This document shows positions 3,484 to 22,691 of a DNA stretch of 64,000 nucleotides, one piece after another (position 1 is the first letter of the stretch; the number at the start of each line of letters is the position of its first letter). This DNA is from an uncultured Verrucomicrobiae bacterium (lineage in GTDB: Bacteria; Verrucomicrobiota; Verrucomicrobiia; Limisphaerales; AAA164-E04). The stretch spans positions 1-64,000 of the forward strand of contig CALSPN010000004.1 of the NCBI GenBank assembly GCA_943788245.1. Direction: 5' to 3'. The notes below the pieces were generated by a model. It had not been told where the DNA came from. It ran no database searches and worked only from the letters and a program-made list of their open reading frames with translations. Made by a program: the position numbers and the translations under genes.

Positions 3484-4653
3484 ATGACCAATGCTTCCAA
3501 AATATGGGCCATGGGCGCCGCGTTCATTGTCATCGCTCCGCTGTCAACAAGTGGCGGTGCCGTTGGGATTTTGAAATCGTTAAGATTGCTGACAACAGTG
3601 CTGGCCTTCTACTTTTCTGTCTCTAGCACCAAACTTCCAGAGCGCCTGGGAGGAGCAAGGAGCTTGTTTAATTTCGTTTTTTTATTCACGCTTGCCGCTT
3701 TGTGGAGCGATTACCCCGTCATGGGGATGGTCAACAAAGGGATGTTATTTTTTACGGTTATGACTGGTCTGGCAATGAGTTATTCTGCTGTATCGGCTAA
3801 GGATTTATTAAAGAAGTTAAATATGATAGGATACGTTGGCGGAGCCTCTTCGTTGACCCTTGCCTGGGTGTTTATTACTAATAAAGAAGAAAATCTTGTG
3901 GGTGATCGCCTGGCCGTAGCCGGTATGAACGCAAACACGATAGGTGCCGCTGGCGCTCTGCTGTTGTTGTTAGCCGTTTATTTGATATTCAAATCTGAAA
4001 GAACCATTAATAAGTTGTCCATCTTTCAAGTGCCGTCTTCTTATTGGCCATCGTTTTGGGAACCGGAAGCCGGGGGGCACTGCTGATGTGCTGCAGTAGG
4101 TTTATTTTTTGTTCTGAAGCCTATTTTAAGCAAAAATGCCATGTCGATATTTGTGGTGTGCCTGATACCATTCATAGTTTTACAAATATATGGAGCCATT
4201 TCTGCTAACGAAGACACTGTGACCCCGGGAATTGATAGGCTTGCCAATATGAACATGGAAACCGAAAATACAAGGTCAGGCATGTGGAATTGGACCATAA
4301 GAAAGTTTAATGAATCTCCCGTGATTGGAAAGGGATGGCTGAGTTGGGGGGGAACCAGCTTCAGCGAACACCCACAACATCTATCTGCATGTATTGGCGG
4401 AATCCGGGGTCATCGGAGGCGTCGTATTTTTGGGCATGCTATTCCGATTGTTTTCTATCCATAGAGTGAACACCTCTTCCTTGAAGGCAGGAACGGATCC
4501 TTATGAGTTTCACACCTCTGGGTGCAGGCATTTTAGCGTCCGTGCTGTTGCATGGAATGGTTGAGAGCTCAACCATATGCTGGGATCATGCTACCAATGC
4601 TCTTATTTTTGGGGTTCGCCGTCGGGCTTCTTGGACCGGGCCACCCTCCTTGA
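3484..4653 (+). CDS. O-antigen ligase / polymerase (Wzy_C family), frame-disrupted
   Basis: A polytopic membrane protein of the O-antigen ligase/polymerase family. The first piece has successive hydrophobic helices (AAFIVIAPLSTSGGAVGIL, LLLLLAVYLIF). After frame changes near 4040 and 4085 it continues through FLLAIVLGTGSRGALLMC and NAMSIFVVCLIPFIVLQIYG. After a further change near 4372 it gives the family signature HNIYLHVLAESGVIGGVVFL, where the conserved His-Asn-x-Tyr-Leu lies in or near the large periplasmic loop. A last change near 4503 leads to VLLHGMVESSTICWDHATNA and a stop at 4651-4653. The protein would polymerise repeat units or ligate glycan to lipid A core. Four breaks are too many for ordinary gene decay with such well-kept motifs, so indel errors are likely. 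Confidence 0.8.
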
Positions 4654-6860: not shown

Positions 6861-8508
6861 TAATCTAAATAGATTGTTTCATACCATTCGACCTTTGCGC
6901 TGGAAGCAGATCTTCTACCGTTTGAATTACAGACTGCGCTTTTGGGCCAAACCAAAGCAGATAAAAGAAACTAATATTGAACCTGATTTGCTGAGTGATT
7001 ACGCAGCGCTCCGTGCATTGAAGGTTCCACTGAAGGCACTATTCAACCGCGAAACCATCCTTGAAGGTCAATTCGAGTTCATAAATCTTAAGGAGCACAT
7101 TGAATTTCCCCCCAATTGGGATTTCAGATCTCCTCACAAGCTATGGCGTTACCAGTTACACTACTTCGAGTGGCTTTTCTGCCTTGATTACATTGAAGCT
7201 CGAAAGTGTGTACTGAGCTGGATTGAAAACTATCATTATGACCGAAACCGGGATGGGTGGGAAGCCTACCCCACCTCACTGAGGCTTATGTCATGGAGTG
7301 CTTATTTCGTAGCCACCCACCGTAGTGAACTTTCAAATGACCCGTCTTTCTCAAGCATATTGAGTCAGAGTATAAAGACTCAAACGACATGGCTGGAAAG
7401 AAATCTCGAATATCATTTGATGGCTAACCACCTTTTGGAGAATGCAGCGGCACTTTTAGTGACAGGTTCTTTATTCAATGGCAACTCAGCACGCAGGTGG
7501 AAGGAAACAGGATCCAAAATTCTCAAACAAGAGATACAAGAACAAATCCTTCCTGACGGCATGCATTTCGAGCGATCACCAATGTATCATTTGAGAATGC
7601 TCAATGTATTGAAGGAAACAAGGCTGTTGCTGAAATCGAACGAAGAAAATCATTTAAAACCGATTCTCCGCTCAATGGAAAAGGCTTTGGATCTAGTCAG
7701 GCACCCGGACGGAGACATTGCACTCCTTAATGACTCAAACCTGGGGGTTTATCCACTCCCCCTCAGCTCTGACAATTCATTCAGCCCAATACCTGGGCCA
7801 TGGAAACTGCCCGATGCAGGTTATTATGGTTACCGTGGATCAAAGGGAGAATATATCATCTTTGATGCCGGACCTATCGGGCCCGACTACAATCCGGGGC
7901 ACTCGCACGGTGACATGTTTTCATATGAGGTCACTTGGAATTACCATAAGATGGTCGTTGATACAGGAAACTTCGATTACGAACCTGGTTTGATGCGTGT
8001 TCATTGTCGGTCAACAAAGGCTCACAATACGGTTCAGGTCAACGAAGAGGATCAATGTGATTTTTGGGGCACTTTCAGGGTTGGAAAAAGGATTCAACCA
8101 GAAGACGTCAAATACGCAGAGAAAGAAAATGGATTTCAGCTTGAAGCAACTCACAGCGGGTATCGCAGATTTCCTGAAAGAGCCGTGCATCGCAGGCTAG
8201 TAGATTTTCATGCTGGAAACCCTCTTCGCATACAGGATTGGATTCAAGCTGAAAAGTCGGTCCATGCGGTTTCCAGAATTCACTTCCATCCCGATTGCAA
8301 ATGTCTGGATATGACGGCTCGGCAACTTGTCATCCGCAACGCCAACGTTGATTGCATCATCGAATGGGATCGAGAATCAAGTGCCAAGCTTGAAGACTCT
8401 TTTTATTGTCCTGAATTCAATACGAAGTTACCAAACAAGGTGCTGGCTTTGACTCAGATCGGAACTGATTTGAGGATTCATTACTCACTTAGATTTACGA
8501 AGGGATGA
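6841..8508 (+). CDS. Heparinase II/III-like protein
   Basis: A protein of about 555 residues with an N-terminal alpha/alpha toroid and a C-terminal heparinase II/III beta-sandwich. Family signs are LWRYQLHYFEWL and WEAYPTSLRLMSW in the toroid, HLLENAAALLVTG, and then NPGHSHGDMFSYEV, VVDTGNFDYEPG and HNTVQVNEEDQCDFW in the lyase-like domain, which keep the histidine and tyrosine pattern. I favour ATG 6841 (MKIPRISNLNRLF) over ATG 6814. No signal peptide is visible. Members of this family inside glycan biosynthesis loci are thought to trim or process the polymer, like alginate lyases in export systems. It overlaps the next gene by ATGA. Enzyme specificity is not predictable here. Confidence 0.85.
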   Translation: MKIPRISNLNRLFHTIRPLRWKQIFYRLNYRLRFWAKPKQIKETNIEPDLLSDYAALRALKVPLKALFNRETILEGQFEFINLKEHIEFPPNWDFRSPHKLWRYQLHYFEWLFCLDYIEARKCVLSWIENYHYDRNRDGWEAYPTSLRLMSWSAYFVATHRSELSNDPSFSSILSQSIKTQTTWLERNLEYHLMANHLLENAAALLVTGSLFNGNSARRWKETGSKILKQEIQEQILPDGMHFERSPMYHLRMLNVLKETRLLLKSNEENHLKPILRSMEKALDLVRHPDGDIALLNDSNLGVYPLPLSSDNSFSPIPGPWKLPDAGYYGYRGSKGEYIIFDAGPIGPDYNPGHSHGDMFSYEVTWNYHKMVVDTGNFDYEPGLMRVHCRSTKAHNTVQVNEEDQCDFWGTFRVGKRIQPEDVKYAEKENGFQLEATHSGYRRFPERAVHRRLVDFHAGNPLRIQDWIQAEKSVHAVSRIHFHPDCKCLDMTARQLVIRNANVDCIIEWDRESSAKLEDSFYCPEFNTKLPNKVLALTQIGTDLRIHYSLRFTKG

Positions 8509-9716
8509 AGATTCTTTTCTTGTCGCATTATTTTCCCCCGGAAGGAAATGCTCCAGCTACCAGAACCTTTGAACATACTCGCCGATGGGCAAACGCGGGT
8601 CACGATATCAAAGTGATTACCTGTGCCCCTAACGTCCCACATGGGCAAGTTTATCCAAATTTCAAAAATTCAATATACAGTCGATCGGTTTTAGAAGGAG
8701 TACGCGTGTTGCGAGTCTGGACATACCTCGCAGCCAACAAAGGAAAAGGTCGTCGTTCACTAAACTATGTATCTTATTTATTCTCATCGGTGGTAGCGGG
8801 TTTATTTTCTTCGAAGCCAGATCTCATGATTGCAACCTCTCCTCAATTTTTTTGTGGATGCGCAGGAGCCATATTAGCAAAACTCAAAAATATACCTTTC
8901 ATACTTGAGATCAGAGACATTTGGCCTGATTCCATCATTGCAGTGAATGCCATCAGCAATCAGAGAGTTTTGAAATGGATGTTCATGCTGGAAAAATGGC
9001 TCTACCGAAGTGCAACGCATATTGTGACGGTAGGCAAAGGCTATAAAAAGGTTCTGGTCGAAAAAGGAGTCCCTCCTGAAAAGATTTCGATCATTACAAA
9101 CGGAGCAGACTTGAAACGGTTTTTGCCAGCAAAGGTTGCTAAAAAGGAAGGCTCCAAATTTATTTGCTCTTTTATCGGGACTTTGGGGATGGCTGCTGGC
9201 TTGGAAGTTGTCATCAGAGCGGCCCAATATCTGGATTCCATAGATGAATCAGATATAGTGTTTCACCTTGTTGGGGATGGGGCTGACTACGAGAACCTTT
9301 TAAAAAAAGTAAGTGATCTCAATATTAGAAGGATTCAATTCACAGGCTTGGTCAAAAAAGAGAATATCTCGGGTTATCTCGAGGAAACAGATGTTTGCCT
9401 GATCCACCTTATTAAATCGGACTTATTCAAAACAGTGATACCCTCTAAATTGTTTGAAGCAATGGCATCAGAGGTTCCAGTTGTCATAGGTGTCCAAGGG
9501 GAAGCAGCTGCCATTGTGGAGGCCGCTCAGTGTGGGCTCTCATTTACTCCCGAAAACCATTTGGAACTTTGCGATCTTCTGATTCAACTCAGTAATGATC
9601 CAATTCTAAGGGCATCCATGGGGGAACAGGGAAGAGTTTATCTTGAGTCCCATTTTTGCCGTGAACAGCTAGCAGATCAATATCTTGAATTGCTGCATAA
9701 GGTATGTCCGGCATGA
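8505..9716 (+). CDS. Glycosyltransferase WbuB-like (GT4)
   Basis: An intact 403-residue GT4 transferase of the WbuB/WcaI-like type. The N-terminal MKILFLSHYFPPEGNAPATR and the linking segment LEIRDIWPDSIIAVNAI are characteristic of this group, which in characterised O-antigen loci transfers deoxy- or N-acetyl-sugars. The donor domain has FICSFIGTLGMAAGLEVVIR and the C-terminal site SKLFEAMASEVPVVIG, with Glu in the usual place. Its ATG overlaps the preceding stop (ATGA), so it is translationally coupled to the heparinase-like gene. About 110 bases separate it from the WecA-type gene. Family assignment is firm; the sugar is an inference only. Confidence 0.88.
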   Translation: MKILFLSHYFPPEGNAPATRTFEHTRRWANAGHDIKVITCAPNVPHGQVYPNFKNSIYSRSVLEGVRVLRVWTYLAANKGKGRRSLNYVSYLFSSVVAGLFSSKPDLMIATSPQFFCGCAGAILAKLKNIPFILEIRDIWPDSIIAVNAISNQRVLKWMFMLEKWLYRSATHIVTVGKGYKKVLVEKGVPPEKISIITNGADLKRFLPAKVAKKEGSKFICSFIGTLGMAAGLEVVIRAAQYLDSIDESDIVFHLVGDGADYENLLKKVSDLNIRRIQFTGLVKKENISGYLEETDVCLIHLIKSDLFKTVIPSKLFEAMASEVPVVIGVQGEAAAIVEAAQCGLSFTPENHLELCDLLIQLSNDPILRASMGEQGRVYLESHFCREQLADQYLELLHKVCPA

Positions 9717-9829
9717 AGAAAATCATTACTTTCGTTTAGTTGACCTATGCTCAAGACTATCTGCACGATTTCCCCAGTGAAGATACAAGCCATAACATAT
9801 GAAAACCTGCCAGCAGAAAGGATTTTAAG

Positions 9830-11314
9830 ATGAGATTCAGCTCAACCATGCTCTTTATCGAAGCGCTTACGATTTGTCTCTTCCTGACACCCTTGATGAG
9901 ATGGGCTGGCACCCGATTGGGCATAGTCGATCAACCGGATGCCTATCGAAAATTCCATGCAGGTGTTATTCCACGTTGCGGTGGTTTGGCAATTTACATC
10001 AGTTTTTTGGTGCCTATTTTTATCTTTTTATTTTTCATTAAGAAAGAAAGTCTGCTTGCAGCTAGTAATCACTATCAAGTGTGGGTAATCGTGATTGGAG
10101 GTGGTATTGCCATGCTAATGGGACTAGCGGATGACATATGGAATATTCGTGTTCGTTGGAAAATCCTGTTCCAGATCATCGCAGCAACAGTCGCCTATTC
10201 TGGTAATTTACGTATTGATAACCTCTCTAATCCATTTGGATCAGCGATTGAATTGGGGTTTTTCTCCTATCCAGCGACACTTTTGTGGTTTTTTGTATGT
10301 ATGAATGCCATCAATATTTTCGATGGGCTTGATGGGCTGGCCGCTGGGGTTTCGCTCTTCGTTACGGTTACTTTGCTTGGTGTCAGTTTGACTTTTGGAA
10401 ATGATACAGGCGTTTTTATCAGTGCCTGTTTATCAGGCGCAATTCTGGGTTTTCTGGTATACAATTTCAGCCCAGCCTCCATATTTATGGGCGATTCAGG
10501 AAGCATGTTCATTGGATTCGGAATTGCAGCGTTGAGTTTGGTTTCCAGTTACAAGGCGGAAACTGCAACTGCCCTTTTGATTCCTATCATCGCACTTTTT
10601 CTTCCGTTTTTTGATCTGATTTCTGCAGCACTCAGGCGGTGGTCTAAGTTTTTACCTTTGACCATGCCGGATGGGAAACATCTTCATCATGTCATGATGT
10701 CCAAAGGATTGAGCGCGAGAAGGACAGTGCTTTATCTCTATATTGTTTGTATTGTTTTGTGCGGTGCCGCTCTGATTATCGTGTTCTCCAGAGCCAGCGC
10801 AACTGCCACTATCGTGTTTATCATCGGAAGTGTTTTCATTGTTGGAAACCATTTCTTGAAGGTGGTGGATGTTAATGAAATACGGAGAAGGATTACTCAT
10901 GACAAACGGAGGCACCAATGGAACAAGGAACACGTTGCGCCGCTCATAAAAGCCACTGATCAAGTGAAGGCCTGCGAAAATTTAGACGATGCATGGCGAT
11001 ACTGTGTCGTTGCTTTCAAAAACCTTGAACTAAGCAGTGCGTCAATAAATGTGTTTGAAAATGGGGAATGGCATAGCCTCCGAGATTGGAAATACAATGA
11101 GTCATACATATCTGAGAACCAAAAAAGCTCCGATCCATCAACTCCGTGGACATGGACTTTAGAATGCCCCATCGAACTTGCGAATGATACAAGGCTGATA
11201 GTACTGAAGTTGAAGGGGAAGAATGAGACTTCAGAGATAAGATCAATAATGCCGCTTTTGAATAACCTTGCAGTCGGTATGAACGAAAAGGATGGTTTAT
11301 GCAAACATGTGTGA
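9830..11314 (+). CDS. WecA/MraY-family polyprenyl-phosphate sugar-1-phosphate transferase with C-terminal extension
   Basis: This enzyme should start glycan assembly by transferring a sugar-1-phosphate to undecaprenyl phosphate at the inner membrane. The first ~340 residues are polytopic and hold the catalytic signatures: DD at 101-102 (GLADDIWN), NIFDGLDG at 162-169, GDSGS at 221-225 and the nucleotide-binding HLHH at 284-287. All key acidic and histidine residues are present. Ordinary WecA proteins end near 360 residues; this one has about 150 further soluble residues (345-494) that begin with a basic stretch NEIRRRITHDKRRHQW and then resemble a small alpha/beta domain with no motif I recognise. 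It is preceded by about 110 non-coding bases, so it may have its own promoter. Confidence 0.9.
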   Translation: MRFSSTMLFIEALTICLFLTPLMRWAGTRLGIVDQPDAYRKFHAGVIPRCGGLAIYISFLVPIFIFLFFIKKESLLAASNHYQVWVIVIGGGIAMLMGLADDIWNIRVRWKILFQIIAATVAYSGNLRIDNLSNPFGSAIELGFFSYPATLLWFFVCMNAINIFDGLDGLAAGVSLFVTVTLLGVSLTFGNDTGVFISACLSGAILGFLVYNFSPASIFMGDSGSMFIGFGIAALSLVSSYKAETATALLIPIIALFLPFFDLISAALRRWSKFLPLTMPDGKHLHHVMMSKGLSARRTVLYLYIVCIVLCGAALIIVFSRASATATIVFIIGSVFIVGNHFLKVVDVNEIRRRITHDKRRHQWNKEHVAPLIKATDQVKACENLDDAWRYCVVAFKNLELSSASINVFENGEWHSLRDWKYNESYISENQKSSDPSTPWTWTLECPIELANDTRLIVLKLKGKNETSEIRSIMPLLNNLAVGMNEKDGLCKHV

Positions 11315-11457
11315 CTCCTACCTTTATCATTGAATTCGGTTCACCATATTAACTTTGTAATGCAAATACGTTTTTCCAAATCATTGCTTGCGCAATTGTT
11401 TCTTCTTCATTTCATGCTGCAGTTCATGTAATACTTGCCCAGAATGACACAAGAAAT

Positions 11458-12012
11458 TTGCCTACAGGGGGAGGCGGTGCTGTGGGGATGGGGGTCCCTA
11501 TTTCTAGAGAAAGGAGCTTAATAAACTTGATTATGCGATCTACTGGCCTGGGTAATAATGCAGACATTACAGGCTCTATTCTTAATCAAAATAAAATAAT
11601 TTCTGATTTACCAATGAATCAGGGGGAAGCAATTAGCTCGAGTTTTTTGCGTCACTACGGGCTTAAAGAACCATTGTCTGGAGATCGGTTCAATAGTACT
11701 TCAAAATATGTGTCTCCTTACTCAAATAGTATACTAAAATTAGAGATGGATACTGAGGACATGGCCAGGAGAAGTGCGACTTGGTTCCAGTTCAAAGGTA
11801 TTGATGCGTTGAAACCTATTGGTCTAGCCGGTCTTTCTTATGACACGAACAGTAGCAATCAAAAGACAACGGTAGTGAGTGATTCAATCATTCAAATCTC
11901 ACGTTTGAATTTTATCTTTAATTATGGAGAAAGGCCGGGATCGTCGACTATTGCTAATCTTTTATATCGACCTAGCTATTTAATGAATATAGCGGGCTCC
12001 AGGGGTAAATGA
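11458..12012 (+). CDS. Hypothetical, possibly secreted protein
   Basis: I do not recognise this protein. The open frame begins at a TTG at 11458 and encodes 184 residues rich in Ser, Asn and Gly (LPTGGGGAVGMGVPISRE near the start). The same frame is open upstream to about 11353 and would add FFQIIACAIVSSSFHAAVHV ahead of ILAQ, which looks like a signal peptide, but there is no ATG in that stretch; an ATG at 11360 lies in another frame. A frame error or an unusual start is therefore possible. The body has short hydrophobic strands (LKLEMDTEDMARRSATWFQF) and no known motif. It sits between the WecA-type gene and a broken asparagine-synthase-like gene. Confidence 0.4.
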   Translation: MPTGGGGAVGMGVPISRERSLINLIMRSTGLGNNADITGSILNQNKIISDLPMNQGEAISSSFLRHYGLKEPLSGDRFNSTSKYVSPYSNSILKLEMDTEDMARRSATWFQFKGIDALKPIGLAGLSYDTNSSNQKTTVVSDSIIQISRLNFIFNYGERPGSSTIANLLYRPSYLMNIAGSRGK

Positions 12013-12140
12013 GTTTGAGCAACAAATCATGTTTCAAGTTGGGCGCGAATTCCATCGCAATGCAATAGCCATGAACAGTCAGACCACAATAACGGCGGCA
12101 CCATTGCGCGAACTACCGGGACGTAGGAAGACCATTTTAA

Positions 12141-13337
12141 ACACACCTTAGCAATGCAATATCCAAACGTGTCAATCAAGAAGCAGTTAGAGGTTTAGCA
12201 CTGAGTGGAGGACTTGATTCTAATGCGATACTATCATGCTGGGATCAGATCAATCAGAAAGGTCAATACAATCACCATTTGTTCTCATTGATTCCTGAAA
12301 AAGAGCATCAAACTGACCCGGAAAGTCGTATGCTCTTGCATCAAAGGGCAAGATTGAAAGGATTTCCTTATCATTGGATTACGCCTTCGAGAGCGCTTGA
12401 TTTAATAGGGCCTGCAGAAATGTTCGTTCGGGAGTTGGAAGATCCATTTGCAGTCTTTTCGCTTTCAGGAACGGCATCTTGTTACAGGGAAGCGTCAGAC
12501 AAGGGAATATCATCGGTTGTTGACGGCATGGACGGAGATATGACAGCCGGCATTCCGTCGATGCATTGGCGGTTTCTCTTGAAGCAAAACCAGTTCATGT
12601 CAAGTTTTGTTGAATGTATTCAACATTATCGTTACGAGAAAGAATCCATCCATGCTGGATACGTTGAGATTACCAAGATGCTTTTGGCTCATTTTCTCCC
12701 TGTTTTCTCAAAATGGAAAAAAAAACTTATTGGTGTTGTTGATGGCAATCATGAAAAGATAGACAGTTGGATGAGGGAGATACCTTTTAGAAAGGACCAA
12801 AATATTGCTGATCATTTACATCATCGCATTCAGCAGCTCAGGAAAAACCACCATCCAATCCCGCCCAATACAATAGAAGAATCAATATTAAACGGGTTGA
12901 AATCTCCCATGTTGGGCGTGGCTATTGACCGCTACAGGCTTTCGGCCGAATCTTGCAACGTAAAATCAATACATCCGCTTTTGGATCGTTCGTTGGTAGA
13001 ATTTTTACTGCAGATTCCATGGAATTACAGAGTCTCAAAAGGCGCTCCCAAAGCTTTGCTGAGACAACATCTGGTCAAATTTGGATACAATAGCATAGCA
13101 AACCAAAGAGATTTAGAACATGTTGGACCTAGATTCACTCATGCATTCATGCGGGACTATTTCAAGCGTCATGCGGAACCAAAAGCGGACTCACTGGAAG
13201 CACTATCTAAATATATTAATATCAAGTCTTACTTAAAAAGCTACCAGCAGGCAGTAAATGTTGATTCGTTTGAAAATTCTGATGAGGATACTTGGAGGAT
13301 CATCATGCTATCCGAATGGTTGTTGAAAAATGGTTAG
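12141..13337 (+). pseudogene. Asparagine-synthase-like amidotransferase, C-terminal domain only
   Basis: The frame is open from just after a stop at 12138-12140 and encodes the ATP-pyrophosphatase (synthetase) half of an asparagine-synthase-like protein. The PP-loop is intact: GLALSGGLDSNAIL near 12200, followed by VVDGMDGDMTAG in the position of the usual aspartate-rich motif. Late in the protein, HPLLDRSLVEFLLQIPWNYR and APKALLRQHL match the conserved C-terminal part. The N-terminal glutaminase domain (a Cys-Gly start and about 200 residues) is absent: only 130 bases separate this from the previous open frame. The first ATG, at 12279, is downstream of the PP-loop, so it cannot be the native start. 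In glycan loci such proteins amidate uronic acids; here the gene is probably truncated or badly disrupted. Confidence 0.65.
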
Positions 13338-13647: not shown

Positions 13648-15420
13648 ATGAGCTTGAAAAGGATATTGAATTTTTTACCCAATACCGAACGTAAACGACT
13701 CTTTGGAATGATGTTCCTTATGTTGATTAGCGGGTTTTTGGAGGCCGTATCTGTGATTTCAATAGCTCCTTTTTTGGCACTAGCAGTAAGTCCTGATTGG
13801 ACAGAAAAGAAACCATTATTAAATTTTTTATACATATTTTTTAATTTCAATAATCATAAAGATTTTCTAGCTGCAGTGGGTGCTTTTTTTATATTTATTA
13901 ATTTCTCAAGCAATGCAATTAAAGTTTTACTAAAATCGGCTCTTATTCGTTTCTCATGTGAAACCATATCCAATGTGTCATCTAATATGCATAAAGTTTT
14001 ACTTAATCAACCTTACACATTTTTCCTAACGCATAATTCTGCGAATTTACTGAGACGCGTATTCACAGAGGTGAATTTCGTCGTAAATAACTTTTTAACT
14101 CCGCTGCTTTCTTGCATAGAGTCTTGCATCACTGTGAGCCTTCTGTTGCTTGTTATAATAAAGCAAAACCCAACTGTAGCTTTTATTTCTGGCAGCACTT
14201 TTGGGTGCATTTACATAGCCATTTATTTCGGGTTACGTTTACGCATAAAACATTACGGCACAGAGGCAAAAAATGCTGACAAAATAAGATTCATGATTTT
14301 AAAAGAAGGCTTTGAGTCTATAAAATTCGCCAAGCTTTTAAATCTGGAGTCCTATTTTGCGACTAGCTATGGCATTCATGCATCAAGATCTTCACGTATG
14401 CAGGGAAACAACCACATCACAAATATAGTTCCTCGCTACTGTGTGGATTCGATAGCGATGATTGGAATAGTTGGAATCACTTTATATTTTGTCAGGTCAA
14501 AAGAACAAACTTCAGAAGTACTCCCTATATTAGCAATTTACGGCTTTGCCTTCTACCGACTTATACCGAACATTCAAAATATTTACTCGAATGCAACTAA
14601 AATGCAATTTGCTACACCGCGTGTTGAAACTCTAATTAAAGAAACAACATCTCTTAAGGTTATAGAGGATAAGCTACCTCTTAATAGCACAACTGAGTTT
14701 AAACAAATACACAATAGCCCACAGCTTGAAGTAAGGAACCTAGAATTCAAATATCCAACTTCTTCGAAAAAAATTCTACAAAACATCAATTTTAAAATTC
14801 ATGAGAATCAATGTATAGGGTTCTTGGGAAAAACCGGATCAGGGAAAACGACTCTACTTGATTTAATGTTGGGTTTACTCCCCCCAGACAAAGGCGAAAT
14901 CCTACACAATGGACGAAGCCTAAAAGGCATCAATAAAAAGCTATGGCAACGAAATATCGGATATGTACCGCAGGATATCATCCTATTGGATACATCCGTT
15001 AAAAGGAATATTGCGTTTGGCGTAGAGGAAAAAAAAATAGATATGGAGAAAGTCAAAAGGGCTGCGATCATGGCTAATATAGATAATTTCATAGAGTCAA
15101 ATTTATCAAGTGCTTATGATACTGAAGTTGGGGACCGCGGGATAAGGCTCAGCGGAGGTCAACGCCAAAGAATTGGAATTGCGCGGGCTCTATACAGGGA
15201 GCCTAAAATTTTATTTTTCGATGAAGCCACGAGCAGCTTAGACAATCAAACAGAAAAAGAACTAATGCAAGCGATTGAAAGACTTCATGGAAAATTGACC
15301 ATTGTTATCGTAGCCCACCGATTAAATACTTTGCAGGGTTGTGATTGGCTCATAAATCTATCTAATGGAAGGGTTTCCAAATCTGGCACTTTCAAACATG
15401 TTTTAAAACAATTTAGATAA
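13648..15420 (+). CDS. ABC exporter, fused permease/ATPase (MsbA/PglK-like)
   Basis: A 590-residue half-transporter that should work as a homodimer, moving a lipid-linked glycan or similar substrate across the inner membrane. Residues 15-330 contain about six hydrophobic helices. The ATPase half has Walker A GKTGSGKTT, Q-loop VPQD, signature LSGGQRQRIGIARAL, Walker B ILFFDEATSSLD and the switch histidine in VAHR, so it should be catalytically competent. Its position inside a polysaccharide locus fits a PglK-type flippase. The gene is intact and more AT-rich to the eye than its neighbours. It lies 66 bases after the IS-like remnant. Substrate is inferred from context only. Confidence 0.9.
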   Translation: MSLKRILNFLPNTERKRLFGMMFLMLISGFLEAVSVISIAPFLALAVSPDWTEKKPLLNFLYIFFNFNNHKDFLAAVGAFFIFINFSSNAIKVLLKSALIRFSCETISNVSSNMHKVLLNQPYTFFLTHNSANLLRRVFTEVNFVVNNFLTPLLSCIESCITVSLLLLVIIKQNPTVAFISGSTFGCIYIAIYFGLRLRIKHYGTEAKNADKIRFMILKEGFESIKFAKLLNLESYFATSYGIHASRSSRMQGNNHITNIVPRYCVDSIAMIGIVGITLYFVRSKEQTSEVLPILAIYGFAFYRLIPNIQNIYSNATKMQFATPRVETLIKETTSLKVIEDKLPLNSTTEFKQIHNSPQLEVRNLEFKYPTSSKKILQNINFKIHENQCIGFLGKTGSGKTTLLDLMLGLLPPDKGEILHNGRSLKGINKKLWQRNIGYVPQDIILLDTSVKRNIAFGVEEKKIDMEKVKRAAIMANIDNFIESNLSSAYDTEVGDRGIRLSGGQRQRIGIARALYREPKILFFDEATSSLDNQTEKELMQAIERLHGKLTIVIVAHRLNTLQGCDWLINLSNGRVSKSGTFKHVLKQFR

Positions 15421-15522: not shown

Positions 15523-16899
15523 ATGCATATTTTGCTTCCCAACTTTTTATTCCCTCCTTTCTGTGGTCCTGGTTCCATGAGGCTGGGGCGATTTGTGAGG
15601 TATTGGGCAGAATTTGGTTCCCATGTTACCGTTGTGACAACATCGCCTGAGGATTATCGAGCAGATTTTCCTCGACATCAAAATCTTGATTGGAAGCTCA
15701 ATGAGAATTTCCCCTGCAGGATAAACATTATCCGCACAAAACCTGTGCATCATTTATGGAACTCAAAAAGCCCACAATTGTCCCAACCAGACAAAACCAT
15801 TGTCTGGAACTCAATTGCGGCCGAAAAATGTAAACTTATACATACCAAAAACCCAGTCGATATTCTTTTTACAAGCTCGAACCCTTTAAGCACTCACTTA
15901 TTAGGGTTGTTACTTAAAAGTCAATTAGGCATTCCATGGATCGCAGAATTTCGGGATCCATGGACAACAAGTCCGTTTCGTGTCTGGAACGACAAACGGC
16001 AGCACCTGTTTGAACGAGAACAACATGAAAAAATTCTTCGAAATGCTGATCATGTCATAGTTAATACGCCAGTAGCCAAAACCGAAACAATCAAGGCTTT
16101 TCCTTTTCTGGGAAGTCAGAAAGTTACGGTGGTTACTAATTTTTTTCACTCAAAATCGATGTCTAGTATTGCAAAAAATTTCTGCCGACACAAAAGCAAC
16201 CGTCTGACAATAGCGCATGTGGGGACCTTAAGAAAAATCGATATTCCTCATGGCTCGGCAAGATTCAGATTGGTTTTAAAAGCGTTTTTGCGGATGATCA
16301 ACAGAGGCAATGGTTACAAGCTGTGTCGCACAAACAAATATGGAAATAGTTTAGCTTATTTTTCCAAAGCCCTTCACCTGCTCGTAAATGAAGATCCTGA
16401 TTGGAAATTTCGTTTACGTCTTGAATTAGCAGGGCGAGTTGGAGTAACTGATGCAAAAAAGGAAATCCAAAATCTGATGAACCGCTATGATATAAACGGA
16501 ATGGTCAGGTATAATGGTCTTGTCTCTCACCAAGATGCGCTTGGTATTCTTTACAACGCAGATGTATTGTTGATCAATCAGGAATATCCTCTCAACGGCA
16601 AAGAATGCTCGGTAGTACCAGCAAAACTGTACGAGTATTTTGGAAGTAAGAAGCCTATTTTAGGTTTACTCCCACCGGGTGACGCTAAGAATTTCCTCAT
16701 TGACTCAGGCATCGGACATGTCAGCGACCCGGCCTCCCCAAAAAAAATTTCCAACCTTATCAAACATATTTACAAGATTCATGCTAACGTAGGTCTCAAA
16801 ACATCGCCGCATAGAAGTTTTACTCGACAATTCGATTCTTCAGTTTTGTCAAAAATCGTATGGGACGAGTTCAAATCGATACTTAAATCCAAAACTTAA
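15523..16899 (+). CDS. Glycosyltransferase family 4 with an internal insertion
   Basis: A 458-residue GT4-like transferase. The N-terminal MHILLPNFLFPPFCGPGSMR and WIAEFRDPWTTSPF (equivalent to the EFRDPW motif of this subgroup) are clear. The donor domain begins at LTIAHVGTLRK and ends with the conserved VPAKLYEYFGSKKPILGLLP. Between the VGTL strand and NSLAYFSKALHLLV there are about 40 extra residues (starting IDIPHGSARFRLV) that I do not expect in this family; they could be a real loop or the result of two compensating indels. About 100 bases separate it from the ABC exporter gene. No membrane helix is seen. Confidence 0.85.
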   Translation: MHILLPNFLFPPFCGPGSMRLGRFVRYWAEFGSHVTVVTTSPEDYRADFPRHQNLDWKLNENFPCRINIIRTKPVHHLWNSKSPQLSQPDKTIVWNSIAAEKCKLIHTKNPVDILFTSSNPLSTHLLGLLLKSQLGIPWIAEFRDPWTTSPFRVWNDKRQHLFEREQHEKILRNADHVIVNTPVAKTETIKAFPFLGSQKVTVVTNFFHSKSMSSIAKNFCRHKSNRLTIAHVGTLRKIDIPHGSARFRLVLKAFLRMINRGNGYKLCRTNKYGNSLAYFSKALHLLVNEDPDWKFRLRLELAGRVGVTDAKKEIQNLMNRYDINGMVRYNGLVSHQDALGILYNADVLLINQEYPLNGKECSVVPAKLYEYFGSKKPILGLLPPGDAKNFLIDSGIGHVSDPASPKKISNLIKHIYKIHANVGLKTSPHRSFTRQFDSSVLSKIVWDEFKSILKSKT

Positions 16900-16922: not shown

Positions 16923-18000
16923 ATGATTTGCTATTTCCTTCGTAAGGTGAAGTCAAAATGCATTCGAGTTAGTAAAAAGCTAATTGCCGTGGCATTTAAT
17001 TTTGCGGCCGTTAATGACATTTTTTGCTCTGTTTATTACTTCATCTTTTCAAAGTCTTTTAATCGCGAACACATCGGTGTGTTAAACGGTATCGCACAAT
17101 TTAGGTCAGTAAGTGGGCTCGAAAATGGGTCCTCAGCATTACTCCGACGCAATATTCACCGATTGGAAAAAGGATTAATCATGCGTCCGAGGAGGGATAT
17201 TTTTGCATTAGCATATATTAGCGAAACATTCGAAGCGTATAAAAGTTGTCTTAGATTGACGGACCATGAAAATAAAGGGGAGCTGAATTGGGCCCGAGAC
17301 GTCTTGTGTGCCTACTTCAAAGCGTGCGCTAAGCACAACCTGATTGATCAATTAAGAACCGAATTCAACAAGCTCCCTGAGCCGAAACCGCTATTAAATC
17401 CCGACCGATCCAGTGCATTCCAACCTTACAAAAGGAATCTTAAAGTGTCATCTGCTGTAAATTACGAAGACCTTTTGTCACTAGCAAAACGTCGTCGATC
17501 GGTTCGATGGTTCCTTCCACAGCAAGTACCCGCGTCATCTTGTTGAAAAAGCCGTCCTTGTTGCAGGACTTTCGCCAAGTGCTTGCAATCGGCAGCCATT
17601 TGAATTTAGATTTTTTGATGATGAAACCATGTTGCGAGTGGTTTCAGAACTTCCAGGTGGCACTGCGGGATATGATCACAATTTCCCTCTCATTGGTGTT
17701 GTAATTGGTAGTCTAGCCCACTTTTTTGATGAACGTGATAGACACCTCATTTATATCGACGGTAGCCTAGCGACGATGAGTCTGGTGTTTGCTCTGGAAT
17801 CTCTTGGATTGAGTTCATGCTGTATTAACTGGCCTGACATGAGAGACCGTGAAGAAAAAGCTCGAAAAGTATTAGGCCTCAAAGAGTATGAAAGACCAGT
17901 GATGTTTCTTGCCATAGGATTCCCTGATCCCGAAGGATTGGTGCCATATTCACAAAAAAAACCTATATCCCAGCTTTGCCGCTGGAACTATACAGGATGA
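16923..18000 (+). CDS. Nitroreductase-family protein (frame-disrupted)
   Basis: A flavin-dependent nitroreductase-fold protein of about 359 residues when one frame change near 17505-17530 is repaired. The first ~175 residues are an N-terminal extension with basic and hydrophobic parts. The nitroreductase domain starts at LAKRRRSVRWF, whose arginines normally bind FMN phosphate, then LVAGLSPSACNRQPFEFRFF after the break, and ALESLGLSSCCINWPDMRDR and RPVMFLAIGFPD near the end, all standard for the fold. Its stop overlaps the ATG of the pyruvyl transferase gene, so the two are coupled. In this setting it may reduce a sugar or cofactor intermediate, but no substrate can be named. Confidence 0.8.
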
Positions 18001-19125
18001 TACTAGAAGTTACAGGAACCGGGACACTTAACAAGGGTGCGGAACTCCTGCTTGTTGCTATTAAAGCCGCCTTGGCCTGCAATAGTGAAATACAACTGGC
18101 AGTCTCTCCGCGTTTTGGCCCATATCATGCGCGTGCAGGGTATGGTTTGCTGCAAAAAGTGAAAATTGACAGACTCGGTAGGTCTAAAGTGGGTTTTTTC
18201 CATACTGCCAGCCTCATTTCGGGCTGCCTATGGCATGGTAACTGAGAATGACATTGACGGGATCATCGATGCATCTGGTTTTGCCTTCGGAGATCAGCTT
18301 CCTGTCTCAACTGCGCAGCATTTCGCAGCAGATTGCATTCGATGGAAAAAGCAAGGAAAACCAATCGTCTTGTTGCCTCAAGCCTTTGGTCCCTTTAAGA
18401 AGAAAGAAGCTCGCCTAGCCTTCCAGTTGATAGCCCAAAATGCCGATTTAATCTTTGCACGTGATAAGGATTCGCTTCAATTTGCTAAAATTGCAGCACC
18501 AGAAGAAGAACAGAAAATACGGCTTGCACCAGATATAACAATAAATGTCGATGGGCCGGTGTTGAAACGAAAGGATGTCAGCGATCAAACTGCGTTGATA
18601 GTGCCAAATGTGCGTATGCTGGATCGCACTAACCCACAAGAATCGCAAGCTTACCTCCCCTTTCTCGCACGATGCGTGAAGTATGTTCGCGAAAAGAAAT
18701 TAGATCCAGTGTTGTTGCTTCATAGCGATAGAGATGACGATAGACTTGTCAACGCAGTTCACGACCAAATAACTTCAAAAATACCAGTCATCCGAGAAAC
18801 TGATCCGATCAAGCTGAAGGGAATCCTTCAGAGTCCTCGTTTGGTAATTGCTTCGCGTTTTCACGCTTTGGTCGCTGCTCTTTCTGGTGGGGTTCCTGCC
18901 ATTGCGGTCGGTTGGAGCCACAAATACAAACACTTACTCAATGACTTTCAATGTCCAGATATGTTTACCTCTGTCAACGCTCCTCCTGACGAGATGTTGA
19001 GGCTCATCACTCAAGTCCAAACTGAGCATGCAATTCGTTCAGAAAGGCTTCGCATAGTAAAAATGAATCTAAGCACGAAAATTGACACTGTTTGGAAAGA
19101 AGCAGGTAAGATATTTTCTTTTTGA
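17997..19125 (+). CDS. Polysaccharide pyruvyl transferase family protein (frame-disrupted)
   Basis: About 375 residues of the PS_pyruv_trans fold, which transfers pyruvate from phosphoenolpyruvate to a sugar as a ketal. The start ATG at 17997 overlaps the previous stop (ATGA). The N-terminus MILEVTGTGTLNKGAELLLV matches the family's GxGxxNKGAE opening. A frame change near 18180-18240 joins it to the rest: IIDASGFAFGDQL, GKPIVLLPQAFGPF, and the C-terminal signature VIASRFHALVAALSGGVPAI followed by VGWSHKYKHLL. Catalytic Arg and His of the SRFH motif are kept. It is paired with the nitroreductase, an arrangement that suggests both modify the same sugar. Confidence 0.85.
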
Positions 19126-19504: not shown

Positions 19505-20700
19505 ATGGTAACTTTTAGAAAGAAGAACTCTAAGAAAATTGCACTTGTTCAGTATAGCTCCAATTTCGGAGGCTCAACCATAAGTGGATTACTAATTGCA
19601 AAATGTTTATTGTCTTACAATCACGACGTGCATGTCATATTTGGATTTAGCGGACCCCTTTGAGAAAATTTATCGTGCCGAGGGTTGCACAACTGAAGTC
19701 ATTCCACACAGGAACTGGCTGAGATCGGGTTCCTTGCTTCATGCCTCCAAGAATTGGATTCGGGAGTTTCGAACAAGTCGCTTGTTTGAAAAAACATTTG
19801 CCCGAGCCGGTGTAGATATTGTGTATATTAACAGCCTGGTAAGTGTGTCAGCAGCATTAGCAGCAAAACGTTGCAATCTTGTTACGATATGGCACCTGAG
19901 AGAACTGTTGTCGGATATCGGGGGGGAGATGCATGCTCCACGCTTGATAGGCAGACATTTGATACGATATGTTTTGCGACATTTTTGCACCCAAGTCGTA
20001 TGCATCTCCAAAGCAGTGGAATATAATCTTTTGGGAGATCATCATAGTGCAAATACTCAAATCATTCCAAATGGTGTGGATAGAATTTACTTCGAGAAAA
20101 AGAACAAAAAGGAAGCACGCGAAGCACTCGGGTTACCTGCCAAATTACCCGTTATTGGAATCCCCGGAACTCTGCGTCCATTAAAAGGGGCACGGCTTCC
20201 TTTTCAGATCGGCAAAAAAAGTCCTTAAAGTTCACCCGAGTACGATCATCGCAATCTCGGGGACTCATTCCGACTCCTATGCTGAGTCGGTCATCCAGAA
20301 GGCAAAATCTACCGGTGTAGCTGCGAACTGCAAGTTTCTTGGCAATATCCCAGACATGCGTAACTTTTACGCTGCGAGTGACATTATATGTGTCCCCTCT
20401 AAATCTGAATCTTTCGGTAGAACAGTTATAGAGGCTTTTGCGATGAGCCGACCCGTTGTTGCAAGTGCAGTAGGGGGAATCGTGGAGACCATTAAAGATG
20501 GCGTGAACGGTTTTCTTGTCGAATACAATGATACAGAAAAGTTGGCTGGAGTGCTTATTGAGTTAATAGAAAACAAATCACTGGCAGGCAAAATTTCTGA
20601 GGAAGCAAGAAATTGCGCAGCGCTTGAGTACACGGCGGATATTTGTGGAAACCGTATCAAAGACGTTATAAATGAGGCAGCTGAACAATATGGAAAATAA
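19505..20700 (+). CDS. Glycosyltransferase family 4 (frame-disrupted)
   Basis: A GT4 transferase of about 398 residues. ATG 19505 opens MVTFRKKNSKKIALVQYSSN followed by FGGSTISGLLIAKCLL, where the SNFGGS loop is the usual acceptor-site turn. Frame changes near 19660 and 20195 must be repaired to join DPFEKIYRAEGCTTEVIPH, the donor-domain start VIGIPGTLRPLKG, and the final piece with IPDMRNFYAASDIICVPSKS and ESFGRTVIEAFAMSRPVVAS (the E-x7-E motif). The second break is at GGGGCACGG. The stop overlaps the start of the methyltransferase-kinase gene. Specific sugar unknown. Confidence 0.82.
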
Positions 20701-22691
20701 GGAATTAAATTCGTTTTATGAGGATCTGCGATGCCCTGAATGTCTTGGAAAGATATCTGTAAAAAATGAAAGGCCAAAATGCAAACTGTGTGGAATAGAA
20801 TACCAAATTAAAGAAGGAATACCTGACTTACGTAAAGACAGATCATCTTATTACTGTGAATTTCCAAAGAATGAAATTGAGCAGTTTTTGGCGGATGCAA
20901 AAAAAAATTTAGAAGGAACCGTTCGAAGTTACTTAAAAGATAAACAGCTCCCCCCAAAACTAGGCGAATACTATCATGGGCTCAGGCAGAGCCGGTTGGA
21001 AATATTTATTACCCATATCAGCGAATTCACGAATTCTTGATCTTGGCTGTGGATGGGGAACGCTGGCTTATGGTCTGGCTCACAGTAAATGTGAGGTTGT
21101 GGCATTGGACAGCACACTGGAGCGAATGCGCCTGTTGTTCACCCGTTCAGTCCAGGATGGTTTAAAAAACCTAAGGACTGTTTGTGCTGGAGATGGCAAA
21201 CATCTTCCATTTTCAGATGATACCTTCGATATAGTCATCGTAAATGGCGTGCTTGAGTGGATACCTTCAGGCCTTCCTGGAGACCCTGGGGAATTACAGA
21301 GAGAATTTTTAAAGGAAATCAGGCGAGTGTTGAACCCAAGTGGAGCGCTCTTATTGGGTATTGAGAACAGGTATGCTTGGAAAACTTGGTTTCGAAATCC
21401 GGACGGCCATACGGGCCTAAGATTTGTTCCATGGTTACCTAGATTATTGGCTAATATGTATTCAAAAGTCACAGGGAAAGGTGAGTATCGTAATTGGTTA
21501 TACAGTGAAAAGCAATACGAGCGGTTATTGAGTAACGAGGGTTTTGATTCCAGCAGTTTTGTCGTACCTCTTCCAGGCTATCATCACCCAGTGTGGATGG
21601 TACCATTGACACAGCCAAAAAAAATTGCAAAACGTGTTCGACGCTCAGTACGCAGTCCGGCAAAGAAAACACTTCAGTATGTCAAGGGGCGGTTGACAGC
21701 AATGTTTCCAGATGCTTTTACAATCATTGCTTCGAGTGAAAATGCAAAGCCAAACTTCTTGGATCGACTCCTTGGACACCTTAATGAATTGGATATTTCA
21801 GGATGGGAAGATATACCACAAGAGTGCGCCGAGTATCGTATTAATGGTGAAATGGGTATTGTGACCATTCTTCTTCAGAAGAATGGAAGAGGAAATGTCA
21901 TCAAACTCCCATTACACAACCGAGCTATTATTGAACTTGAACATGAAGTTACCTTTTTCCAGCAATCTCCAAAGCAGCTGAGTAATCTATTGCCAAGGGT
22001 TATAAGTAAGGGAAATTTCGATGCTCAAGAATACTTTGTTTACTCATTCCTACCCGGCTCAAGTGGTGAGGGATTTCGAATCGAAGATTGGCGATTAAGT
22101 AAGGTTTTAAATTCTGCTGTCGATTTACTAGTCGCTTTTGATAATGAAAAAGATTTAACAAATGCCTCAAGTCAACTGGCGAATATTGAGCAAAAGGTTC
22201 TTTCGCTTACCTCCTCTGAGTTACAACGCAATTGTGTCAACTAATGCAGTTAAAAGATGTCAAGGGTTCATGGAAAACCATATCCGATGACGGTTGGGTT
22301 TTGGGACACGGGGATTTCAAGCTGGCTAATTGTATCCTTGCAAAGGATTCATTTTCTATCCAAGGCGTTATAGATTGGGGAGGATGGAGAAAAAAGGAGT
22401 TACCAGGTTACGACTTGGCGTTTCTACTCACGGATATAAAATGGCGATTTGGATCTAGCCTTGAGGAAAGCATCCGTTTGTGGCGCGATAATCTCCCAGC
22501 GGAAAGTTGGGCCATTCAGGCAATCGACCACTTCAACTTGGCCACTAACCGAAATATCGGGGATAAAGAGTGGAAAGCAATCATGGCATGGCAATGGTTT
22601 GAAAAGGCTAGCACCATTAGCAGATTTAGTTGAATGCAAGCGATTTGACTACAAATACTTAAACAGAATGTTCGATGTGTATGCAGATTGA
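20690..22691 (+). CDS. Zinc-ribbon / SAM methyltransferase / APH-like kinase fusion (frame-disrupted)
   Basis: Repaired, this is a single protein of about 667 residues with three parts. Residues 1-50 form a Trm112-like zinc ribbon (CPEC at 15-18 and CKLC at 31-34). From about residue 115 there is a class I methyltransferase with motif I ILDLGCGWGTLAYGLA, the acidic strand end VVALDST and motif IV-like FDIVIVNGVLEWI. The C-terminal third is an aminoglycoside-phosphotransferase-like kinase: the catalytic loop HGDFKLANCIL at about residue 538 and the metal-binding VIDWGGWRKKELPGYDLAFL near 560. Frame changes fall near 21000, 22235 and 22610. Its ATG overlaps the preceding glycosyltransferase stop. 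The layout recalls WbdD, which phosphorylates then methylates the end of an O-polysaccharide to stop growth; a similar terminator role here is inference. Confidence 0.8.

Follow-up and report, generated by a model that had tools for sequence, protein, structure and literature searches.

A zinc-ribbon, methyltransferase and APH-like kinase fusion beside flippase genes: a candidate methyl-phosphate capping enzyme for lipid-linked glycans

Background

What would an enzyme do that joins a zinc ribbon, a SAM-dependent methyltransferase and an APH-like kinase in one chain and is encoded at the end of a glycosyltransferase cluster? The question is raised by a locus in a 64,000-nucleotide stretch of DNA (the window) from contig C4 of a draft genome (3.64 Mb, 79.5% complete) of an uncultured Verrucomicrobiae bacterium, which a preliminary description, made from the sequence alone, had read as a possible WbdD-like chain terminator.

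According to the published work, WbdD has a length-setting role (PMC3482155; PMC11127046), and its kinase is described as Src/PknB-like by its authors (PMC3482155). In vitro, ORF6 of Klebsiella pneumoniae O7 puts a phosphate on position 3 of the terminal rhamnose and adds a methyl group to that phosphate; the protein is arranged in the order of methyltransferase, APH-like kinase, carbohydrate-binding module (CBM), coiled coil and two GT2 modules, its SAM-site residues are Y28, Y66, G91, G93, E112 and Y158, its catalytic kinase Asp is D441, and CgnL is given as the closest structure of its methyltransferase (PMC11231755). The methyl-phosphate ends described in these sources come from ABC (Wzm/Wzt) pathways, in which they set chain length (PMC11231755, PMC3482155). 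The Lcin_0519 kinase-methyltransferase family comprises 871 homologues, with Wzt and glycosyltransferase homologues in 27% of the neighbourhoods (PMC9758233); judged by taxa and Wzt neighbourhood, it is possibly the same family as ORF6-O7.

Results

The fusion gene and its cluster

The gene and its parts in the window are as follows.

20690..22691, plus strand: zinc-ribbon, methyltransferase and APH-like kinase gene, interrupted in the window assembly by frame changes, with motifs read directly; one frame in eight fused relatives
20732..20791, plus strand: putative Trm112-like zinc ribbon with the CxxC...CxxC pattern, CPEC at 20732-20743 and CKLC at 20780-20791
20930..21740 (limits approximate), plus strand: class I SAM methyltransferase domain, from Pfam and family alignments, with the extent taken from the AlphaFold model of relative L031
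Methyltransferase motifs, plus strand: DLGCGWG 21039-21059, NGVLEW 21243-21260, IENR 21360-21371, His 21408-21410, PGY 21573-21581
21850..22660 (limits approximate), plus strand: APH-type kinase domain, APH (PF01636) on the window piece
Kinase motifs, plus strand: HGDFKLAN 22307-22330, VIDWGG 22367-22384

The ribbon, SAM and kinase motifs named in the preliminary description (CPEC/CKLC, DLGCGWG, HGDFKLAN, VIDWGG) were all found in their places, in order and in plus-strand frames. Its APH-like assignment of the kinase is borne out by Pfam, in which the window pieces matched Methyltransf_11 (E 4e-16) and APH (E 3e-6) and the intact relatives matched the same two families (E 2e-12 to 3e-19 and E 3e-7 to 5e-16, respectively); the zinc-ribbon matches of the window's ribbon piece were all below threshold.

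The fusion stands, as previously described, at the end of a glycosyltransferase cluster, with these members upstream.

19596..20700, plus strand: GT4-type glycosyltransferase (Pfam), immediately upstream of the fusion and itself split
17976..19125, plus strand: polysaccharide pyruvyl transferase, two overlapping ORFs (PS_pyruv_trans E 1e-28 for 18166-19122)
16923..18000, plus strand: nitroreductase-like gene, split (PF00881 E 7e-9 on 17629-17997)
15523..16899, plus strand: GT4-type glycosyltransferase (Pfam)
13648..15420, plus strand: PglK-like ABC flippase, aligned over 4-577 of 590 residues with PglK/WlaB (6hrc, 5c73), E about 1e-63
9830..11314, plus strand: WecA/MraY-like initiating sugar-phosphate transferase (Glycos_transf_4 E 4e-38)
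3484..4480, plus strand: Wzy-like polymerase or ligase, broken; Wzy_C match below cut-off at C4:4286-4432 with stops inside, and a match above cut-off in the same region of the G003 contig

In all, the cluster encodes several GT4 and GT2 proteins, along with a heparinase-like protein. The PglK-like ABC protein, several genes distant from the fusion, is its likely export partner. Searches of the window's assembly (79.5% complete) gave no match to Wzt_C (PF14524) or ABC2_membrane (PF01061); ABC2_membrane was also absent from genomes G002, G003 and G480, and some matches occur elsewhere in G001, G009, G010 and G312. By its gene content, in an assembly that is incomplete, the window cluster looks like a flippase-type pathway.

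The glycosyltransferase-fusion pair recurs in G003, G002, G010 and G009, and a glycosyltransferase fragment precedes the fusion in G001. In G009 the trio of glycosyltransferase, fusion and PglK-like ABC protein (L028 8041-13384) lies outside any larger polysaccharide cluster. The expectation that homologues would be confined to polysaccharide loci was borne out for most of them; the lone G009 trio and planctomycete L034, which has no obvious polysaccharide neighbours, depart from it. The G003 sister cluster also holds Wza-like and Wzc-like proteins. Within that polysaccharide cluster lies a lasso-peptide-like gene set (L024 4390-11021), made up of PqqD, a transglutaminase-like protein, Asn synthase, an NTP_transf_5 nucleotidyltransferase, a second ABC protein and an AAA/kinase-like protein; at the corresponding place the window retains an Asn-synthase fragment only, and roughly 10 kb is missing, including the Wza- and Wzc-like genes.

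Intact relatives and the broken frame

Eight fused relatives at other loci each encode ribbon, methyltransferase and kinase in a single open frame of 620-694 residues.

Genus, family or phylum of the window: G003, 665 aa; G002, 671 aa; G010, 663 aa; G312, 694 aa; G480, 620 aa
Named collections: Burkholderiales MAG, 670 aa; Planctomycetes MAG, 629 aa; the archaeon Halomontanus rarus, 637 aa

The three-part layout sought elsewhere is thus present, the pieces of the window gene are rejoined in its relatives instead of falling apart into unrelated genes, and the earlier reading of one three-part enzyme stands. The existence of these homologues excludes a chance origin of the layout.

Frame breakage in the window copy was noted correctly, although the three changes counted then are four single-base length differences when the copy is aligned with the 95%-identical sister gene of G003: one by the ribbon/methyltransferase junction, a closely spaced pair within the kinase, and one near the C terminus. 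The in-frame middle segment gave dN 0.036 and dS 0.185 against G003 (dN/dS about 0.2), and it follows that the protein was under purifying selection until recently. Is the gene of the window strain then a recent pseudogene, which would be compatible with any function proposed for the relatives? Four single-base differences in 2 kb are denser than in the 15 kb beyond, and the gene is intact in three of the six carrier genomes of the window's family, the copies of G000, G001 and G009 containing a stop or frame change (a stop each in the last two). Weighing against decay are the low dN/dS and the state of the upstream glycosyltransferase and an RND gene, which are broken in similar fashion in the same assembly. 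Because of these similarly broken genes, sequencing or assembly error seems the likelier cause, and we regard a pseudogene as fairly unlikely.

Distribution

The sampling comprised 823 genome searches, nearly all within a single phylum, plus one capped scan, and the family proved patchy. With a nine-row profile (E 1e-20), 8 of 320 genomes of the order matched, the window's own included; six belong to the window's family and two hold methyltransferase-only copies. With a five-row profile, 7 of 387 genomes of the phylum sample matched, again counting the window's own. No relative was found among the viral contigs searched. Among 80 loci from named collections, we counted L031-L036 and L039 as members of the family, five weak matches served as outgroup and the remaining 68 weak matches were set aside; the GVLE motif was sought only in the ORFs of L037-L051.

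Methyltransferase-only relatives without ribbon or kinase occur at L009/L120 and L121 (G083, G571). Since the sole recognised neighbour of the G083 copy is a sigma-factor-like ORF, the methyltransferase family may be used in other settings too.

The zinc ribbon

Ribbons and Trm112 parts stabilise methyltransferases elsewhere, and by analogy the N-terminal ribbon would stabilise or dock the methyltransferase here, stabilisation being the probable role. The CxxC...CxxC pattern is present in 11 of 11 N-termini examined, a set selected as ribbon type. Trm112p matches (E 8e-4 in L015, 0.013 in L031) are both under the Pfam cut-off, the best scoring 19.7 bits against a cut-off of 22. The AlphaFold model of L031 aligned with RlmA(I) (1p91) over residues 6-344, through the ribbon (Z 16.9, rmsd 3.6, 215 aligned; VIA), and with the Trm112-partnered methyltransferase 6f5z (Z 17.7, rmsd 6.8, 212 aligned; VIA).

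Kinship with the O7 methyl-phosphate terminator

In the alignments, the family methyltransferases have in common GVLE[WY], IEN, a later His and PxY. The positions that never vary across the 19 rows include an arginine ahead of the SAM motif and two SAM-motif glycines; IEN and the His are kept in all but the archaeal row (18 of 19). In this haloarchaeal fusion (L113 4956-6869) the kinase motif is kept, and as IEN and the conserved His are lost its methyltransferase domain may be inactive. The tree separated the family, with ribbon and ORF6-type proteins jointly grouped, from five other methyltransferases at 95/95; the ribbon rows do not form one supported clade (3 label changes), and L030 and L034 pair. 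A PADLOC mad2 match was dropped, as it covers only a generic methyltransferase stretch.

As a stand-in for the ORF6-O7 sequence we used a 1457-aa Pseudomonas asturiensis plasmid protein, which carries Tyr28, Tyr66, Gly91, Gly93, Glu112 and Tyr158 at the ORF6-O7 numbers (6/6); the D441 equivalent is not at the same number. On this resemblance the non-ribbon kind was taken to be the ORF6-O7 type. In tblastn searches, L031 matched this Wzm-Wzt-linked protein at E 7e-15 and a Citrobacter protein at 3e-10, and L007 matched the Pseudomonas protein at 1e-6. Kinase profiles of the ribbon and non-ribbon kinds aligned with an HHalign probability of 95.8 (E 8e-9). The comparisons indicate that the methyltransferase and kinase of the window type are distant kin of the ORF6-O7 methyl-phosphate terminator. 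Methyltransferase identity across the subtypes is only about 25-35%, and since the arginine of IENR is a glutamine in the ORF6-type plasmid proteins, the predicted active sites are not identical.

Structure models

The L031 model has a mean pLDDT of 62.5, with the ribbon and methyltransferase mostly at 70-95 and the kinase mostly under 60; the L034 kinase modelled alone reached a mean of 41. Many methyltransferases tied at Z 16-18 (VIA), RlmA(I) and CgnL (Z 16.6, rmsd 3.5, 211 aligned) among them. Foldseek matched the model to WbdD (4azs, 4ax8, 4azt, 4uw0; E 2.5e-9 to 7e-9) over 552-641 alignment columns that span both domains, with low TM-scores (0.25-0.31 by target); because the kinase models are poor, the kinase part of this alignment is weak. 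By sequence the window-type kinase matches APH; WbdD is matched by fold, with a weak kinase model. WbdD did not appear in the best 60 of 344 and of 230 sequence-profile matches, nor AmiN among the matches listed, and both absences are uninformative. The ribbon proteins end 105-144 residues past the start of the HGD motif, a length within the needs of a kinase C-lobe, so that a coiled-coil ruler would have no room after the kinase.

Transporter neighbourhood

Ribbon members adjoin Wzx in G312 and in the Burkholderiales and Zixibacteria MAGs, and an annotated flippase in Halomontanus; a PglK-like ABC protein accompanies them in the window, G003, G002 and G009. The Zixibacteria member (L032) is a ribbon-methyltransferase without kinase, and a Wzy-like protein is also present in G312 and the window cluster. 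No Wzm/Wzt was found near any ribbon-type gene examined. In the non-ribbon members an APH-like kinase follows or is fused, with these neighbours.

L018-L020, three loci in the window's class: Wzt, methyltransferase, kinase
L035 (archaeal) and L039 (Paenibacillus): Wzm and Wzt present
Citrobacter and Pseudomonas plasmids: Wzm, Wzt, methyltransferase-kinase
L036, planctomycete, 7842-12167, 1442 aa: methyltransferase-kinase-GT2-GT2, the O7 ORF6 layout, beside a Wzx-like ORF and not Wzm/Wzt (Wzx assigned by an in-house profile only)
L033, Tritonobacter: Wzx, methyltransferase and kinase as separate adjacent genes

Counted by lineage, the ribbon kind has five flippases and no Wzm/Wzt, and the non-ribbon kind two flippases and four Wzm/Wzt or Wzt (Fisher, one-sided 0.045, two-sided 0.061; one-sided 0.21 if the two transporter-less ribbon rows, L030 and L034, are counted against). 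The five of five covers only lineages in which a transporter was seen: the loci of G001 and G010 run to contig ends, those of G480 and the Planctomycetes have no transporter in reach, and accordingly L026 and L027 (contig ends) and L030 and L034 (no transporter) stand outside it, as L009, L017 and the other methyltransferase-only rows stand outside the transport count. The transporter profiles were built partly from the same proteins, and Pfam agrees for those scanned. With few lineages, the split between flippase and Wzm/Wzt is no more than suggestive.

Discussion

Proposed function

We propose that the gene encodes one cytoplasmic enzyme, some 665 residues long, in which an APH-fold sugar kinase follows a Trm112-like zinc ribbon and a SAM methyltransferase, and which would act on a polyprenyl-linked glycan assembled by the glycosyltransferases encoded beside it. 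The kinase would first phosphorylate a sugar hydroxyl of this glycan, the methyltransferase would then place a methyl ester on that phosphate, and the PglK-like ABC protein, or Wzx in other lineages, would flip the methyl-phosphate glycan. The observations are the domain composition, the intact relatives, the flippase neighbours and the homology of both catalytic domains to those of the ORF6-O7 type; the substrate and the methyl-phosphate product are inferred, and so is the order of the reactions, from the ORF6-O7 homology, by which the two enzymes likely carry out the same two reactions. Taken as a whole, we give this explanation about an even chance of being right.

A true WbdD-like terminator, which would cap a growing cytoplasmic polymer, set its length and license its export, has the methyltransferase-kinase order of WbdD and ORF6-O7 and the WbdD fold match across both domains on its side, and export of a capped polymer through this type of flippase is conceivable, given that the PglK-like Wzk is needed to display O antigen in Helicobacter and moves a variety of glycans in E. 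coli (PMC2841628). The length-setting role that the preliminary description proposed is nevertheless decidedly unlikely: there is no room for a ruler, the window's assembly (79.5% complete) yielded neither the Wzt carbohydrate-binding domain (Wzt_C) nor ABC2_membrane, and the ribbon lineages stand beside Wzx/PglK-type flippases, joined by a Wzy-like protein in G312 and in the window cluster. A better match is a cap or decoration that the lipid-linked glycan would receive ahead of flipping. What stands of the WbdD comparison is that an APH-like kinase joined with a methyltransferase does solve the WbdD task in a different way; this solution is not new, having been published for K. pneumoniae O7 ORF6 (PMC11231755).

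The two domains might also make separate decorations, the methyltransferase O-methylating a sugar hydroxyl and the kinase acting at another position, for example on every repeat unit. The kinase-less ribbon-methyltransferase beside Wzx (L032) agrees with this, as does the O8-type WbdD, which methylates hydroxyls without a kinase (PMC3482155), and we consider it rather unlikely, for the domains are fused in eight intact relatives, are split but adjacent in L033, and have ORF6 kin that act sequentially on one site (PMC11231755). That the substrate is a small molecule or peptide, such as a lasso-like product in G003, or that the kinase is of the aminoglycoside-resistance type, would suit the APH family match and the PqqD, transglutaminase, Asn synthase and nucleotidyltransferase genes in the same G003 region. 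It seems very unlikely when G009 retains the glycosyltransferase, fusion and ABC trio with no lasso-like genes around it and the partner common to the sister loci is a glycosyltransferase.

Meaning of the ribbon type

The general methyltransferase plus APH-like kinase architecture is already known from the papers cited (PMC11231755, PMC9758233); the novelty of the window type lies in its ribbon, its lack of a coiled-coil ruler and the pathway. In the portions of the literature searched, no report of the ribbon type was found (zinc ribbon or Trm112 with methyltransferase, phosphotransferase or O-antigen), nor of a methyl-phosphate enzyme in a flippase pathway. Beside flippases, a homologue without a ruler would either extend capping to flippase pathways or use the same chemistry as plain decoration. 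We put forward tentatively, as possible but doubtful, that a ruler-less zinc-ribbon branch of methyl-phosphate cappers serves Wzx/PglK pathways in bacteria, and also in a haloarchaeon whose methyltransferase would have decayed, capping the finished lipid-linked oligosaccharide before it is flipped. If so, terminal methyl-phosphate would occur outside Wzm/Wzt pathways as well. The lineages concerned are that of the window, Planctomycetes, Burkholderiales, Zixibacteria and Halobacteria, and with the intact relatives the idea is testable on one purified protein. Proteins whose annotation is just 'phosphotransferase' or 'class I SAM-dependent methyltransferase' gain a function hypothesis as well.

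Comparison with known systems

In RlmA(I) and the Trm112-partnered methyltransferases, as in the window type, a class I methyltransferase is combined with a zinc ribbon or with a ribbon partner; unlike the window type, they have no kinase and are not known as glycan enzymes. APH(2'')-Id and the macrolide 2'-phosphotransferases belong to the same kinase family by sequence, but are stand-alone antibiotic kinases. WbdD of E. coli O9a and K. pneumoniae O3 shares the arrangement of methyltransferase then kinase in one protein, whereas the coiled-coil ruler and a Wzt with CBM are WbdD features (PMC3482155). In ORF6-O7 a homologous methyltransferase with GVLE[WY], IEN, His and PxY is likewise followed by an APH-like kinase; the window type adds an N-terminal zinc ribbon, is without the CBM, coiled-coil and GT2 modules, and is accompanied by PglK or Wzx, not Wzm/Wzt.
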